Assembly: GCA_019685655.1 (NCBI GenBank)
Contig: JABFQP010000004.1
Location: 62,001 to 126,000, forward strand
Direction of reading: 5' to 3'
DNA: 64,000 bases
From: Candidatus Bathyarchaeota archaeon A05DMB-5
GTDB taxonomy: Archaea > Thermoproteota > Bathyarchaeia > Bathyarchaeales > Bathycorpusculaceae
Positions 17,673-57,601 of this stretch are shown here, piece by piece. Below the pieces are notes generated by a model. That model was not told the DNA's origin. It made no database searches and saw only the letters and a program-made list of their open reading frames with translations. Every line of letters starts with the position of its first letter. The first letter of the stretch is position 1. A program made the position numbers and the translations under genes.

Positions 17673-18635
17673 TTGAAAACCATCGGCGTGGTTACAAGCG
17701 GCGGAGACGCACCCGGCATGAACGCCGCCATCCGAGCAGTCACACGCTTAGCCTACGCAAAAGACTTCCAAGTTTTAGGTTTCGAGAAAGGCTGGGAAGG
17801 CTTAATGACAAGCACGTTCAGAGCGTTAACGCCGCGTTCAGTAGGCGGCATAATGCAGTTAGGCGGCACAATCCTTCTAACATCACGATGCCCGCACTTC
17901 AGAAAACCAGAAAGCATTAAAAAAGCAGCGGAAACTCTCGCCTCAAACAAGGTAGACGGTTTAATCGTCATCGGCGGCAACGGCTCCTTCAAAGCAGCAC
18001 ATGAACTAAGCCAAAAAACAAGCACACTCATTGTAGGCGTTCCAGCAACAATCGACAACGACGTTTACGGCACAGACGAAACCATCGGCTTCGACACTGC
18101 GGTGAACACTGCAGTAGCTGAAATCGACAAAATCCGCGACACAGCAATTTCCCATGAAAGAATCTTCATAGTCGAAGTCATGGGAAGAACAAGAGGCTTC
18201 CTAGCATTAACAGTTGGTATCACAGTCGGAGCCGAAACAATCCTAGTCCCAGAAGTCAAAACTCCCATCGAAGAAATCTTAAGGAACATTAAAGAAAACA
18301 GCGAAAAAGGAAAAAGGTCTGGGATAATAGTAGCCGCAGAAGGCGTGGGCGACACGCGCAAAATCGCAAACGAAATTGAAACACGCACAGGCGCAGAAGT
18401 AAGACTCAGCATCATAGGCTATGCACAAAGAGGCGGGTCTCCAACAGCCAGAAGCCGACTACTAGCCAATCTATTCGCAAACGAGGCAGTTGAGTTATTA
18501 GCCAAGGGACAGGGAAACAGAGTAGTTGGACTGCAAAACGGCAAAATAACAAGTATAGAACTTGAGAAATCATGTCAGATGGAAAAGCCTTTAGACTTGA
18601 GCTTACTTAAAATGGCAAGAACACTGGCAACATAA
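17673..18635 (+). CDS. pfkA: 6-phosphofructokinase, PfkA family with atypical donor-site residues
   Basis: 320 residues, TTG start with AAGGAGTG at 17660-17667. N-terminal VVTSGGDAPGMNAAIRAV, then VIGGNGSFKAA (101-109), VPATIDNDVYGTDETIGFDT with the catalytic aspartate, and EVMGRTRGFLA. Compared with E. coli PfkA (GGDGS, G104, PGTIDND) the D103 position is N here while G104 is kept, and A replaces G in the VPxTIDND loop. G at 104 favours ATP over pyrophosphate. Convergent with a second paralogue that has the PPi-type signature. Confidence 0.85.
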   Translation: MKTIGVVTSGGDAPGMNAAIRAVTRLAYAKDFQVLGFEKGWEGLMTSTFRALTPRSVGGIMQLGGTILLTSRCPHFRKPESIKKAAETLASNKVDGLIVIGGNGSFKAAHELSQKTSTLIVGVPATIDNDVYGTDETIGFDTAVNTAVAEIDKIRDTAISHERIFIVEVMGRTRGFLALTVGITVGAETILVPEVKTPIEEILRNIKENSEKGKRSGIIVAAEGVGDTRKIANEIETRTGAEVRLSIIGYAQRGGSPTARSRLLANLFANEAVELLAKGQGNRVVGLQNGKITSIELEKSCQMEKPLDLSLLKMARTLAT

Positions 18636-18637
18636 AT

Positions 18638-19037
18638 CTATAGTTTTCTTCCATAAAGAGCAAGTATGAAACTAGCTACTGGTAATCCCCAACCTAACAA
18701 GAAAGCTACAAGGTCATATAGAACCAACGGCATTAAACTCTGAGGACCATAAATAAGTCCGGGAACCAAAATGAGCAAAGCGCCAACAATTACGGTTTTC
18801 TTTTTTTAAAACCAAAATGCTGCCGAGAATAATCAGTAAACCAACAATAACTAAGAATGCCCCAACCACACCGACAGGACCATGCGCCGGCCACGGAGCA
18901 TAAATATACTTAATTCCCGTCACTAATGCAGCTAACCCAAGAAGAATGCCGAGAAGGAAGCTAACAAATAAATACACATTCATGTCAGAAAAGTAAGGCT
19001 GATTTATAGTAGAGGGCTCGTTTAAATCGTCTTTCAT
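18638..19037 (-). pseudogene. Four-helix membrane protein gene split by a frameshift
   Basis: Starts at 19037, overlapping the stop of the upstream PFK gene by four bases. The first frame reads well through two membrane segments (VYLFVSFLLGILLGLAALVTG and GPVGVVGAFLVIVGLLIILGSI) to LVLKKEN, then turns into non-membrane text. Removing one A from the A7 run (plus-strand T7 at 18801-18807) restores KKKTVIVGALLILVPGLIYG, then LMPLVLYDLVAFLLGWGLPV, ASFILALYGRKL and a stop at 18638. The span (400 bases) is one base over a multiple of three. Either a sequencing/assembly error or a true broken or slippery gene. Function unknown. Confidence 0.7.
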
Positions 19038-20062
19038 CCGAAAAACACGCTCGCTATTTCGTAAAGTTCCAAATCCACAGGTTTACGCTTACCAACAACA
19101 GTTTTAAGCGGAACCGAAACAATCTTGTTCCCTTGAATGGCAACCATGCGCCCAAACTTTCCTTCATGAACAAAGTCTACTGCGGCTATCCCAAACCGCG
19201 TGGCTAATATTCTATCAAAAGCCGTTGGAGAACCGCCGCGTTGAAGATGCCCCAAAACCACTACACGCGTTTCTATACCCGTACACTTTTCAATCTCTTT
19301 CCCAAGAAAATAACCAACACCGCCAAGACTTATGTGCCCAAACTCATCTATGCTTTCGCTGTAAACAATCTCTTTTCCACCCTTCGGTTTAGCCCCTTCA
19401 GCAACAACAATCAAACTGAAGTTTCTGCCACGCTCCTGCCTACGCCTAATATACCTGCAAACTTCATCTATGTCAAAAGGTTTCTCCGGAATCAAAATAA
19501 CATCAGCGCCACCAGCAAGTCCCACTTCCAAAGCAATGTGACCAGTGTATCTCCCCATTACTTCGAGAATTATTACTCGATTGTGGGCTTCTGCTGTCGT
19601 GTGAAGTCTATCAAGAGCTTCAGTGGCAATTGCAACAGCCGTGTTGAAGCCAAAAGTGTAATCAGTGCCAGACAAATCATTATCGATAGTTTTTGGAACC
19701 CCAACGCATTTAAGCCCAAAATCTCCCATCTTAAACGCCACACTTAACGTGTCATCGCCGCCAATAACAACCACAGCCTCAATACCCGTCTTCTCAGCAT
19801 TTTTCATAATCGTCTCTGGTCCCTTTTCACGTTTAAACGGGTTCGTCCTCGAAGTGCCTAATATAGAGCCACCACGCGGAAGAATACCCGACACAGCATT
19901 CAAACTTAAAGGCAAAAACTCGCCCTCAAGCAGTCCACGCCAACCATCTTTTACACCAACAACCTCATAACCATAATTTTGAATGCCTTTTCTAACAACT
20001 GCTCGAATAACAGCGTTAATTCCCGGAGCATCGCCTCCACCACTTAAAACTCCAACTTTCAT
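19034..20062 (-). CDS. pfp: Phosphofructokinase with pyrophosphate-type signature
   Basis: 342 residues. VLSGGGDAPGINAVIRAV, then VVVIGGDDTLSVA with D104, and VGVPKTIDNDLSGTDYTFGF with K124. The D104/K124 pair is the recognised marker of PPi-dependent or group III PFKs, whereas ATP enzymes have glycines at both sites. EVMGRYTGHIALEVGLAGGA and LGHLQRGGSPTAFDRILATR complete the substrate site. It would interconvert fructose 6-phosphate and fructose 1,6-bisphosphate reversibly. Followed by the class II aldolase gene upstream on the same strand (20 bases apart), so the two probably form an operon. Confidence 0.87.
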   Translation of the reverse strand: MKVGVLSGGGDAPGINAVIRAVVRKGIQNYGYEVVGVKDGWRGLLEGEFLPLSLNAVSGILPRGGSILGTSRTNPFKREKGPETIMKNAEKTGIEAVVVIGGDDTLSVAFKMGDFGLKCVGVPKTIDNDLSGTDYTFGFNTAVAIATEALDRLHTTAEAHNRVIILEVMGRYTGHIALEVGLAGGADVILIPEKPFDIDEVCRYIRRRQERGRNFSLIVVAEGAKPKGGKEIVYSESIDEFGHISLGGVGYFLGKEIEKCTGIETRVVVLGHLQRGGSPTAFDRILATRFGIAAVDFVHEGKFGRMVAIQGNKIVSVPLKTVVGKRKPVDLELYEIASVFFG

Positions 20063-20081
20063 ATGCGCTTTTCACCATTAA

Positions 20082-20999
20082 CTATGCTTTCCCAGAACTC
20101 CCAAACAACCGCATTTTACCCTTAACAACCTCTTTCATCGCTTCCTTAGCCGGACCCAAAATTTTTCTCGGGTCAAACTCCTTCGGCGTTTTCGCCAAAA
20201 CCTCGCGGACGGTAGCTGTAAAAGCCAATCTCAAATCAGTGTCAATGTTTATTTTTGCAATTCCCAAAGAAATCGCCTTCTTAATGTGCTCTTCTGGGAT
20301 GCCCTTCGCCCCAGCTAATTCAGCTCCGTATTTCACGGCTTTCTCAATAATCCACTGAGGAACACTCGAAGCGCCATGCAACACAAGCGGCACATCCACC
20401 TTTTCCCTAATCTCCCTCAACCTTTCAAAATCAAGTTTCGGCTCAGCCTTAAACTTGTAAGCACCATGAGACGTCCCTATCGCCACTGCAAGAGCGTCCA
20501 CCCCAGTTTTTTCAACAAATTCTTTCGCCGTTTCAGGATCAGTTAAAACAGCCTCTTTCTCCTCAACCGTCTTCTCCTCCACACCCGCAAGCCTTCCAAG
20601 CTCAGCCTCAACCGCCACCCCTTTCGGATGCGCCAAATCAACCACACGCCTCGTCAAAGCAACATTCTCCTCAAACTTCAAAAAAGAACCGTCAATCATA
20701 ACAGACGTGAAACCAGCACCAACACACTTCGAAACTATCTCAAAGTCCTCGCCATGGTCAAGGTGAAGCGCCATGGGCACCGGCACCGATTTCGCGGCAG
20801 TCTTCACAATTTCTGACAAGTAAGCCAAACCACCATACTTAATCGCGCTCGGCGTGACAGCAACTATAACAGGCGATTTCTCCTCAACAGCCGCCTCACT
20901 AACAGCCAACAAAGCCTCCAAATTATTTATGTTAAAAGCGCCAACAGCATAACCATTCCGACTAGCCGGCACCAACAAATCCTTGTTCGTAACAAGCAT
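20082..20999 (-). CDS. Class II fructose-bisphosphate aldolase
   Basis: 305 residues from the ATG at 20999 (a GTG at 21008 is also open; GGTGGGG suits the ATG). NGYAVGAFNINNLE at the N terminus, zinc ligands in MALHLDHGEDFE, in IGTSHGAYKFK and in LVLHGASSVP, and KINIDTDLRLAFT are class II hallmarks. Cleaves fructose 1,6-bisphosphate to DHAP and glyceraldehyde 3-phosphate. Most archaea use a class I-type aldolase or the bifunctional FBP aldolase/phosphatase, so this bacterial-type enzyme suggests transfer. Operon with the PPi-type PFK. Confidence 0.9.
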   Translation of the reverse strand: MLVTNKDLLVPASRNGYAVGAFNINNLEALLAVSEAAVEEKSPVIVAVTPSAIKYGGLAYLSEIVKTAAKSVPVPMALHLDHGEDFEIVSKCVGAGFTSVMIDGSFLKFEENVALTRRVVDLAHPKGVAVEAELGRLAGVEEKTVEEKEAVLTDPETAKEFVEKTGVDALAVAIGTSHGAYKFKAEPKLDFERLREIREKVDVPLVLHGASSVPQWIIEKAVKYGAELAGAKGIPEEHIKKAISLGIAKINIDTDLRLAFTATVREVLAKTPKEFDPRKILGPAKEAMKEVVKGKMRLFGSSGKA

Positions 21000-21060
21000 C
21001 TTCCCCACCGCAGTCTGTTATTAACTAAATCGATATAAATCATTTACACTGCACCAGAAA

Positions 21061-35997: not shown

Positions 35998-36948
<951 letters not shown>

Positions 36949-36972: not shown

Positions 36973-39186
36973 TTATACTGCCGCAAACTGGTCTAAGAAC
37001 GCCAATGTGCTTACCGCCCCGCAAGAGGGACATTTCTGCAATCTTCCAAACCAGCTTCTTTTACAGTTGACACAATAGGTTAGTTTGCGATTGTACGTGA
37101 AAAATTCTAGGCTGCCGCTTTCAAAAATCTGTTTGGTTAAATCCATAAGAGCTTCCGGCTTATGCTCGACTTCTCCAAGCTCTATTACCGAAAAATATCC
37201 GCCAGCATCAAACATTTTGCCCAGTTTCTCTTCAACCTTTAAAGCAGCCGGAAGAATTTCATTCTCTTTGAGAATCAACTTACTTGCTGCTGAATAAAAC
37301 GGCTTTTCCCGTGTTCCAGAAAAGCGCACTTTTGCAATACCATATCTCTCAATATCCAACTGTGCAAGTCTTTCAGAAGCTTCAACACTCGGCAATGCCG
37401 CCAAGGAAACATTTTTGCCATGTTTTATCACACTTTTGTTTGCATAATCTGAGGCTTGCTGGATTACTTCCTCAGCAAACGCCAAACTTTTCTCATCTTC
37501 ATAAATACTCTTCCCAGAAAATATCTCAGCAGCCTCTTTCAAGCCTATCAAATTTATTATGCGAGAACAATTTTCAAGTCTAAAATACTGGTCGCCATTG
37601 ACTTCTTGAGAGAGAAACGGAAGCAAACCTGCACAATGCTGTTTAAGCGCTCTATACTTAATCTCTAAAGCACGAGCTGCCATTTCTAACCGCTCTTTGA
37701 ATATTTCCAGAAATTTCGCCTTATCTTTTCCAGATTCAACCGCTATTCGTGGAAGGTTAACCCCTACTTTCCCAAGACAGCCAGTACGCAGAGTGTCAAT
37801 TTCCCAATCTCCACTAGTATCAGTTTTGAGCTTAAATCCGGAAGAAGAGAAAACAGATTCGTACTTGTTTCCTCCTAAAAGATTAGCAAAGTAGAATACG
37901 CCTTTTTCTGAAGCCAACTGATGCGCCTTTAAAAGCATTTTCTTTGCCTTTTCATCAGCAAACGCGTTCTCGCGCACCTTCAAGATTATCGCGGGATTAA
38001 ACAGAGGCTTACGCAAGCTTTCTTCAATAAATATTTCAAAGATAAGCGAAGCTAAAAGTTGGCTTTCTTCAACAAAATCTCCATATTTACCTAACACTTT
38101 TCCATCAGAACCGAGAACTTGTTTTCCAGCAATAAAATCTGGGACTGTTAGCTCCAGGCCAAAAGACGCTTTTACATGCTGATTTACCTCAAGAATGAAT
38201 AAACGCAAAGCCTCCTTAACCTCTGTGAGCTTTGCGTCTTTTGCAAAAGGCGCCAAAAAAACATTAAAATAATCAAAAGTTTGCGTTGCATCCACTTCTC
38301 TTGCAGAATGCAAAAGAACATTAAACGCAGTCGACAAAGCCGATTCCAAGCTGCTTGGAGAAGGTAAAGAAGACTTGAAAACGTTTATTCTTTCCAAATT
38401 GAAGCCATGCTGCAGGAAAAATCGCAAATCATGCATAATCTCGCTTGGCTTCAAAATCCACGAACCCAAACCTTCCACAAAAATTGAACCTGACAAATGC
38501 GCATCTGCAACATCTCTTGGAAACACATTCAAAAGCACATACTCTCTTAAAATTGTCTCTCCCAATTGTTCACCTACAGAACCCACTCGCCGAGCAGTTT
38601 TTTTCCCCTCTAACAAGCTGGCAACATCATACACAGGAAGCCCCAAACGCGTAAGCTTATGCCGATACTCCTCTAACCCCTTCTCTATCAAAACCGCATT
38701 CACAACCTCTCTCACAAGAGGAGCCGTCAAATACTTCGTTTTTGACTTTAACAGTCGCTTTTCAGCTTCTTTCGCCACCTTCTGCGCCAGTTCAGTCGGC
38801 ATTTTCGCCTCTCTAAAAAGAGAGCTTGCAATCTTGTTCGCGTCAAACTCTTCTAGCGCAAAACGCGAAGTGCGTATAAGCATACTTTTTGGTTTCAAGG
38901 CTTTCTTCTCAATCTTATCTGCAACATCAATAACCATCTTGCCAAGCTCAGTTAAACAATACTTCTTCGCTTCCACATCCGCCTCAATCAAGTCAGCCCT
39001 AAGCAAAAACTTCAAATGATAAGCAAACCTTCCCGCATCCCTCGTAGGATTCATCTTCAAAGAACTCATCAACTCAGTGTAAGAAAGAGGTCCCCTATCA
39101 AAAAGCAAATTTAAAATCTGCAATCTAAGAGACGAAGAAACCGCTTTAAGTATTTTTACTCCTCGCACACGATGTGGAACTGACAA
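36973..39186 (-). CDS. Winged-helix/ATP-cone/NrdD-like fusion lacking a visible glycyl-radical motif
   Basis: 737 residues. Residues about 10-85 are an ArsR-like winged helix (LRLQILNLLFDRGPLSYTEL, AYHLKFLLRADLIEADVEAK). Residues about 102-195 are an ATP-cone (LIRTSRFALEEFDANKIASS, YLTAPLVREVVNAVLIEKG). Residues 200-690 resemble the class III ribonucleotide reductase barrel, keeping the active-site cysteine in LRTGCLGKVGVNLPRI (C470) and a C-terminal four-cysteine zinc site (C705, C708, C719, C722). The protein ends 15 residues after CPSC with FLDQFAAV and no RxxGY glycyl-radical motif. No nrdG is adjacent. Could be a dNTP-sensing regulator or an enzyme needing another radical source. Confidence 0.75.
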   Translation of the reverse strand: MSVPHRVRGVKILKAVSSSLRLQILNLLFDRGPLSYTELMSSLKMNPTRDAGRFAYHLKFLLRADLIEADVEAKKYCLTELGKMVIDVADKIEKKALKPKSMLIRTSRFALEEFDANKIASSLFREAKMPTELAQKVAKEAEKRLLKSKTKYLTAPLVREVVNAVLIEKGLEEYRHKLTRLGLPVYDVASLLEGKKTARRVGSVGEQLGETILREYVLLNVFPRDVADAHLSGSIFVEGLGSWILKPSEIMHDLRFFLQHGFNLERINVFKSSLPSPSSLESALSTAFNVLLHSAREVDATQTFDYFNVFLAPFAKDAKLTEVKEALRLFILEVNQHVKASFGLELTVPDFIAGKQVLGSDGKVLGKYGDFVEESQLLASLIFEIFIEESLRKPLFNPAIILKVRENAFADEKAKKMLLKAHQLASEKGVFYFANLLGGNKYESVFSSSGFKLKTDTSGDWEIDTLRTGCLGKVGVNLPRIAVESGKDKAKFLEIFKERLEMAARALEIKYRALKQHCAGLLPFLSQEVNGDQYFRLENCSRIINLIGLKEAAEIFSGKSIYEDEKSLAFAEEVIQQASDYANKSVIKHGKNVSLAALPSVEASERLAQLDIERYGIAKVRFSGTREKPFYSAASKLILKENEILPAALKVEEKLGKMFDAGGYFSVIELGEVEHKPEALMDLTKQIFESGSLEFFTYNRKLTYCVNCKRSWFGRLQKCPSCGAVSTLAFLDQFAAV

Positions 39187-39293
39187 GTCTGCGTTAGCCT
39201 CCCCAAAGTGGTAAAGTAATATTACGAGGTAAAGGGTTTAAAGGTTAAGTAAGACTATATTTTTATGTTTTAAATGTAAAGATGAAGCATCAA

Positions 39294-39398
39294 GGGGCTG
39301 TCGGCTAGCTTGGTCTAGGCTTGGAGACTTGGGCTCTCTAAGCGCTGTGGCGTTTGCCACGTGCGGGAAGGACCCCGGTTCAAATCCGGGCAGCCCCA
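39294..39398 (+). tRNA. tRNA-Pro(UGG) with extra bases (probable intron) in the variable region
   Basis: Acceptor GGGGCTG/CAGCCCC, D stem GGCT/GGCT (with G-U pairs), anticodon stem GGAGA/TCTCT with loop CTTGGGC (anticodon TGG), T arm CCCGG-TTCAAAT-CCGGG. Between the anticodon stem and T stem lie 34 bases instead of about 5, containing the hairpin GTGGC-GTTT-GCCAC flanked by GCGC/GTGC. About 29 bases would be removed as an intron; exact ends not resolved. A T run follows (39399-39404). Confidence 0.85.
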
Positions 39399-39404
39399 TT
39401 TTTT
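39399..39404 (+). terminator. T-run terminator after tRNA-Pro(UGG)
   Basis: Six Ts directly after the discriminator base. Confidence 0.55.
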
Positions 39405-39413
39405 CGCTGCGTT

Positions 39414-40400
39414 TTAGGTTAAAAAGTGCTTATAGACTGGGTGCCCTTTGAATCGTAGGTTTGTTTCGGATTTTTCTATTGTCCCGCTTGGCAATCTTAT
39501 ACAGAGAGAGCTGACAATTGCTCCGTTTTTAACGAATCTTACGCCGTCTAGGAGTTCGCCTTTTGTCACACCTGAAGCCGCAAAAACCAACTCGTTGCCT
39601 TTAGCTAGTTCGTCTTCAGTATATGCTTTTTCTACATCAATGCCTTCCGCTTCTAGCCTATCCAGCCTTTTTGGGTCATCTTTTTTGTCTTTCCACACTT
39701 TCACTAGCATTGTGCCGCCTAAACACTTGACGGCGGTTGCTGCGATTGTTGCTTCTGGGCCGGCACCTGCGCCTATGAGAAGGTCAACGCCTGAGCTTGG
39801 AATGCATGTAACAACTGCTGCTGCGATGTCACCGTCTGGAATGAGAATTATTCGCACACCTAATTTTCTAAGAATGCTAAGAATGTCTGCGTGTCTTTCA
39901 CGCTCTAACATTATTACAGTGAAGTTTTCGAGAGGCAAGCCTTTTTCTCGAGCTACTGCTCGCACAATTTCCTCGACAGACATGTCCAGAGAAAGTTTTC
40001 CAGCAGAATGATGGTCTGTCGCCACTTTGAAATAGTATCCGTCGTCTGGAAGCACTTGAAAACATCCAGCAGGCGCGCATGCAAGAGCGGAAATGGCGTC
40101 TTTTCTGCCTTTGGAAGCGGCGGTTGTGCCGTCAACAGGGTCTACGACAAACTCGACTTTTGGACCTTTGCCAGTTCCCACTTTTTCTCTTTTTAGGAAT
40201 GCTGGGGCGTTGTCTTTGGGTCCTTCGCATGAGATGACTTCTCCTTCCACATCCGTCTGCGCTAGGACAGCTCTGGAAAATTCTACGGCGTTCGCGTCTA
40301 TCAAATCAGGGTTGCCTTGACCAATATGTAAGGCGGCGCCAACTGCTGCGGCTACTGTTATTCTGGTTAATGAAGGCGCTAAAGCCCTAAGAGAGACCAT
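39414..40400 (-). CDS. glpX: Class II fructose-1,6-bisphosphatase (GlpX type)
   Basis: 328 residues. VEFVVDPVDGTTAASKGRKD gives the metal site, VIMLERERHADIL the catalytic region, ILIPDGDIAAAVVTCIP and DLLIGAGAGPEATIAATAVK the substrate site. This is the bacterial GlpX family; archaea more often carry the bifunctional FBP aldolase/phosphatase. Hydrolyses fructose 1,6-bisphosphate in gluconeogenesis. Operon-like spacing with the downstream tRNA is coincidental (opposite strands). Confidence 0.88.
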   Translation of the reverse strand: MVSLRALAPSLTRITVAAAVGAALHIGQGNPDLIDANAVEFSRAVLAQTDVEGEVISCEGPKDNAPAFLKREKVGTGKGPKVEFVVDPVDGTTAASKGRKDAISALACAPAGCFQVLPDDGYYFKVATDHHSAGKLSLDMSVEEIVRAVAREKGLPLENFTVIMLERERHADILSILRKLGVRIILIPDGDIAAAVVTCIPSSGVDLLIGAGAGPEATIAATAVKCLGGTMLVKVWKDKKDDPKRLDRLEAEGIDVEKAYTEDELAKGNELVFAASGVTKGELLDGVRFVKNGAIVSSLCIRLPSGTIEKSETNLRFKGHPVYKHFLT

Positions 40401-57509: not shown

Positions 57510-57601
57510 GGGCCCGTAGCTCAGCTAGGTTAGAGCGACAGGCTCATAAACGCATGCGCTGAGAGACCTGTTGGTCAGGCGTTCAAATCGCCTCGGGCCC
57601 A
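57510..57601 (+). tRNA. tRNA-Met(CAU) with canonical 37/38 intron
   Basis: Acceptor GGGCCCG/CGGGCCC, D arm GCTC/GAGC, anticodon stem ACAGG/CCTGT. Loop CTCATA is followed by 17 bases (57549-57565, AACGCATGCGCTGAGAG) and then A, the standard intron position. Anticodon CAT. It could be elongator Met or the Ile2 precursor; the sequence suits elongator Met. CCA not encoded. Confidence 0.9.

Follow-up and report, generated by a model that had tools for sequence, protein, structure and literature searches.

Class III ribonucleotide reductases (RNRs) of the NrdD type (PF13597; for instance those of T4, 1h7b, P. copri, 8p2s, and S. thermophilus, 9d3x) carry an ATP-cone followed by an alpha/beta barrel, a zinc site and an NLPR segment, together with two catalytic cysteines, a glycyl radical loop and an adjoining nrdG gene. 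The regulator NrdR (TIGR00244) joins a Zn-ribbon DNA-binding domain to an ATP-cone, and two residues of this cone, K50 and R51, contact phosphates (PMC9110341). NrdR is present in only some archaea (PMC9110341), and the regulation of RNRs in most archaea is hence largely unknown. Repressors of the ArsR/MarR type, such as CzrA, CadC, HlyU and HxlR, have a winged helix fold that spans about 95 residues. Here we describe a gene that shares features with each of these systems. It lies in a stretch of 64,000 nucleotides from Candidatus Bathyarchaeota archaeon A05DMB-5 (contig JABFQP010000004.1, positions 62,001 to 126,000 of the forward strand), which we refer to as the window, and its product, designated here the dead-RNR protein, combines a winged helix-turn-helix (wHTH) domain, an ATP-cone and a catalytically dead NrdD barrel. 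We consider it likely that this protein is a transcription regulator of RNR genes, in which an ArsR/MarR-type winged helix was joined to an ancient class III RNR, with later loss of catalysis. No description of a wHTH-NrdD protein was found in the literature searched, which lay mostly outside the subscription journals. The gene and its domains are positioned in the window as follows:

36973 to 39186, minus strand: complete gene for the 737-residue protein with wHTH, ATP-cone and catalytically dead NrdD barrel (open reading frame and domain matches; homologues in nearly all relatives)
38896 to 39174, minus strand: winged helix, residues 5-97, with an ArsR/MarR-type fold (HTH_5 over cut-off, AlphaFold2 model and structural matches)
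38662 to 38880, minus strand: ATP-cone, about residues 103-175 (PF03477)
37087 to 38595, minus strand: NrdD-type alpha/beta barrel, about residues 198-700 (AlphaFold2 model and class III RNR structures)

The reading frame starts with a TTG codon, and Pfam models recognise HTH_5 (24.8 bits, cut-off 22), DUF7347 (31.0, cut-off 27.6), the ATP-cone (29.7 bits, cut-off 25.8, residues 107-174) and NRDD (PF13597; 241.6 bits, cut-off 26.2, residues 206-724, profile positions 14-529 of 562) in its product; the NCBIfam equivalog of NrdD, TIGR02487, scored 261 and stayed under its cut-off of 326. An AlphaFold2 model calculated with 42 homologues reached a predicted local distance difference test (pLDDT) score of 85, and its barrel matched the class III RNR structures of the PDB with Z values of 29-33 and root-mean-square deviations (rmsd) of 2.3-3.6 for most entries, compared with Z values of only about 19-21 for other RNRs and glycyl radical enzymes. 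When modelled separately (pLDDT 90.8), the winged helix matched the structures of CzrA, CadC, HlyU and HxlR with Z values of 11-12.5, and CzrA was the best match (Z 12.5, rmsd 2.0, 91 residues). The Foldseek E-values for this small domain are weak, about 1e-3, and its class assignment therefore rests on the fold and the Pfam match to HTH_5. An earlier note on this DNA, made from the letters and their translations, had placed a DNA-binding wHTH, an ATP-cone and an NrdD-like barrel in one protein, and both the Pfam domains and the predicted folds bear this out. In contrast to the ArsR/MarR-type repressors, the dead-RNR protein has as its effector part a dead enzyme of 540 residues that includes an ATP-cone; relative to class III NrdD, the N-terminal winged helix is an addition.

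The barrel is catalytically dead by virtue of replacements at two key positions and the loss of its C-terminal loop, while its zinc site is retained:

38440 to 38442, minus strand: E249 at the position of the catalytic Cys79 (T4 NrdD numbering; alignment with NrdDs)
37834 to 37836, minus strand: F451 at the position of the thiyl-radical Cys290 (T4 NrdD numbering; alignment with NrdDs)
37021 to 37074, minus strand: retained zinc site C705-xx-C708 ... C719-xx-C722 (invariant in the 42-sequence alignment A2)

These positions were assigned by comparison with the genome's own NrdD and with PDB entries, and 105 distinct homologues of the dead-RNR protein were then set against 26 catalytic NrdD enzymes. 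The Cys79-equivalent column holds a cysteine in all 26 enzymes and in none of the homologues; the Cys290-equivalent column does so in 26 of 26 and 21 of 105, respectively. The earlier note had credited the barrel with its active-site cysteine, a statement that has to be withdrawn; the residue meant was probably Cys470 in the segment RTGCLG, whose counterpart in T4 NrdD is an Asn and not Cys290. Every homologue has kept the NLPR segment, and about 100 the zinc cysteines. As the note had said, the protein stops shortly after the zinc site, 15 residues past its last cysteine, and the glycyl-radical loop that follows in NrdD is missing. The glycyl-radical glycine is present in all 26 catalytic enzymes, in contrast to a complete lack of RxxGY/F in the last 80 residues of the 105 homologues.

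A frameshifted or decaying nrdD, or an assembly error, would readily account for the missing motif, but the same architecture and the same end recur in the 105 homologues, so that the combination envisaged in the note, motif-bearing homologues beside a frameshifted copy in the window, did not materialise. Moreover, all three minus-strand frames lack both RxxGY and RxxGF at the 3' end of the gene, the +1 frame ending in GKHIGVLRPVCGSINF exactly as reported earlier; the ratio of non-synonymous to synonymous substitution rates (dN/dS) is 0.14, and in about 60 relatives the homologue is likewise an uninterrupted frame of comparable length. We thus reject this explanation. In some early-branching homologues, a tail alignable to the glycyl loop is still present (YYTKAFGRYKSSRAW, HYGRLTTRYETISSWDYGK), and two of these proteins retain the Gly in KxxGR; from their sequences, these residual tails look like stepwise decay. 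The dead proteins all group in a single clade (support 100/100), the inner order of which is unsure owing to long branches (ammonia oxidisers, L124, L125).

The genome containing the window (1.5 Mb, archaeal, 98.6% complete) encodes, at a different location, a canonical nrdD (motif RVVGYLRP) in the gene order nrdR-nrdD-nrdG, and a class II RNR as well; the search for nrdG and a canonical RNR that the earlier note had called for has therefore succeeded. As these enzymes exist, the 737-residue protein is not the cell's RNR, and it falls outside NrdD, since it lacks the three defining features that were tested. A still-catalytic class III RNR operating by another radical route and with unusual chemistry would be in line with the preserved barrel and zinc site, and with the cysteine that 21 of the 105 homologues have at the Cys290 position. 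Yet, the window protein has neither of the two catalytic cysteines nor the glycyl loop, and the canonical nrdD-nrdG pair and the class II RNR are encoded elsewhere in the genome, which makes this alternative highly improbable. None of the neighbouring reading frames of the dead-RNR gene in the window is nrdG-like.

The true NrdR of this genome is encoded at G000:C3:79271-79699. At L113 (5263-8531, G000:C3), nrdR, nrdD and nrdG make up one operon, in which the start of nrdD overlaps the stop of nrdR. In a sample of 80 genomes of the phylum, NrdR scores over its cut-off in all 12 genomes of the window's family and in none of the 68 others. Membership of the dead-RNR protein in the NrdR family was considered and rejected: the NCBIfam scan yielded no match to TIGR00244, the cone residues differ and a separate NrdR is present in the genome. 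Both proteins connect a DNA-binding domain to an ATP-cone and share a probable role in RNR regulation, but the dead-RNR protein has a wHTH instead of a Zn-ribbon, a whole dead barrel and different cone residues. The simplest account would be a regulator of RNR genes derived from an RNR, one that works like NrdR in concept yet stands outside its family.

About 74 of the 80 sampled genomes possess the dead-RNR protein. Almost all sampled Bathyarchaeia relatives have it, as do numerous other families of the phylum; the sampled relatives carry about one copy per genome, with identities of 41-88%. A phylum-wide search found matches at E 1e-60 in 155 of 250 genomes, a few of these matches being catalytic NrdDs. 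A viral origin was rejected, as no relatives were present in viral contigs. In a comparison of the window with its closest relative, dN/dS was lowest in the wHTH (0.035), followed by the cone (0.061) and the barrel (0.168); the gene is under purifying selection, which is strongest on the winged helix. Ammonia oxidisers with the dead-RNR protein, to which we assign families f17, f45 and f48 because their sampled genomes carry archaeal amoA, have class II RNR only and no class III enzyme.

The position of the gene relative to RNR genes bears on its probable function. In families f2, f4, f6 and f7, nrdD adjoins the dead-RNR gene, either directly after it (f7, f2) or following a glutaredoxin-like gene (f4 and most of f6), with a convergent pyrB beyond nrdD in several f4 and f6 loci. 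The class II gene nrdJ is the downstream neighbour in f10, f17, f45 and f48, including with f10 a Bathyarchaeia genome without class III RNR. The dead-RNR gene is consequently linked to both class III and class II RNR genes. G041 and G060, two genomes of one genus, have different NrdD subtypes between pyrB and the dead-RNR gene; at these loci (L116, L171), a glutaredoxin gene accompanies one NrdD subtype and none accompanies the other. Linkage was found in 20 of the 74 carrier genomes (the 80 sampled minus six without the dead protein) and in 6 of 29 families; by a simple binomial estimate its chance occurrence is about 7e-9, or 1e-5 when four families are counted, figures to be read with the families being not fully independent.

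The same adjacency would suit a pseudoenzyme subunit which, whether DNA-bound or soluble, regulates the RNR enzymes themselves and whose winged helix serves for protein contact or localisation to replication sites; the retained NrdD fold and NLPR could allow mixed oligomers with NrdD. We deem this unlikely, as the protein persists in ammonia oxidisers that have no NrdD and the strongest purifying selection falls on the wHTH. A role as a subunit of NrdD in particular is disfavoured by the genomes that keep the dead-RNR protein without NrdD. Another proposal starts from the pyrimidine genes at the locus:

36028 to 36948, plus strand: pyrB, the convergent neighbour, by which the locus can be recognised in relatives that have nrdD between it and the dead-RNR gene

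Since pyrB and pyrI border the locus not only in the window but also in several further families, the protein might use nucleotides as a signal to regulate other genes, pyrBI or a wider set for growth and DNA replication. However, pyrB is convergent with the dead-RNR gene and the neighbour in ammonia oxidisers is nrdJ, and we judge this proposal to be rather improbable. Linkage to RNR genes and persistence without NrdD make a transcription regulator of RNR genes the best interpretation.

The following residues bear on whether such a regulator could sense nucleotides, and the DNA ahead of the gene on where it might bind:

38866 to 38871, minus strand: T106-S107 in place of the Lys-Arg of the standard cone, a near-invariant RTS signature (homologue alignment)
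39232 to 39248, minus strand: upstream element TTAACCTTTAAACCCTT, with variants conserved upstream in relatives (one occurrence in the own genome at <=1 mismatch)

The threonine is found in 102 and the serine in 104 of the 105 homologues. As the same RTS signature is present in catalytic NrdDs of some relatives, T106-S107 is no proof of lost nucleotide binding; the old active site or the specificity site could also serve as a nucleotide sensor instead of the cone. In Bathyarchaeia, the element surrounding TTTAAACT upstream of the gene is conserved, and this element is unique in the window's genome. TTAACCTTTAAACCCTT is probably a B recognition element (BRE)/TATA element and may represent no more than the basal promoter, but it is possibly also the operator of the protein itself. 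In a set of 23 genomes of ammonia oxidisers, GATC shows the highest enrichment of all 4-mers over control intergenic DNA, both upstream of the dead-RNR gene (8.7x) and upstream of nrdJ (5.0x), and triple TGATC clusters were seen at the locus in six out of ten such genomes; GATC is a candidate operator only. At L173-L192, dense GATC/TGATC clusters lie ahead of the TATA element, and also ahead of nrdJ. Many ammonia oxidisers (L119, L120 and others) have a short zinc-ribbon reading frame (with the end ...DVQEN or similar) just upstream of the dead-RNR gene.

Several observations weigh against a regulator of RNR genes. The dead-RNR gene lies away from RNR genes in most families, including that of the window, where neither nrdD nor glutaredoxin is found between it and pyrB and nrdD lies elsewhere together with a true NrdR; the phosphate-binding Lys-Arg of the NrdR cone is replaced by T106-S107; the window's genome already has NrdR; and no operator common to the dead-RNR gene, nrdR-nrdD and nrdJ was seen in Bathyarchaeia. 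The GATC signal, drawn from related genomes, varies from strong to weak among genera (Poisson values of 1e-8 to 0.15 per genome), and GATC/TGATC clusters also occur elsewhere in ammonia-oxidiser genomes. Nevertheless, the wHTH fold, the loss of catalysis, the conserved single copy, the repeated adjacency to class III and class II genes and the presence in genomes without class III RNR give good support to a regulatory role and a derivation from NrdD. To this extent the suggestion of the earlier note is partly borne out; nucleotide sensing is a tentative component of it, as the cone residues corresponding to K50/R51 of NrdR are substituted.

The data lend themselves to a model in which the dead barrel and the cone most likely act together in dimerisation and nucleotide sensing; the winged helix would bind at the promoters of its own gene and the RNR operon, presumably to repress rather than to activate. 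Expression of RNRs might thereby be tuned to the levels of deoxynucleoside triphosphates (dNTPs) or nucleoside triphosphates (NTPs). In the window's family, candidate targets would be the nrdR-nrdD-nrdG operon, the class II nrdJ gene or the dead-RNR gene only. A bolder version, on which we are evenly divided, is a phylum-wide family of archaeal RNR repressors, independent of NrdR, whose sensor is a dead RNR copy that reads the dNTP pool by the same allosteric fold that makes dNTPs, and which followed the RNR gene through the swap from class III to class II.

Other observations concern the surrounding DNA. Upstream of the dead-RNR gene, positions 39296-39399 contain a tRNA-like stretch (GGGGCTG...CAGCCCC) with a T-arm, perhaps intron-bearing, which also occurs upstream in several relatives and was called by neither ARAGORN nor Rfam. 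A tRNA at 57510-57601 was called by ARAGORN with an unusual four-base anticodon (ataa), and is possibly intron-bearing. Two PFK-type phosphofructokinases, a class II fructose-bisphosphate aldolase and a GlpX-type fructose-bisphosphatase are encoded at 17673-21008 and 39414-40400; these sugar enzymes are of bacterial type, in an archaeal genome.

Ammonia-oxidising archaea, some of which are culturable, make a role of the dead-RNR protein in RNR regulation testable. If its DNA binding indeed depends on nucleotides, it would represent a second, independently evolved RNR regulator, in which the enzyme itself has been recycled as the sensor.
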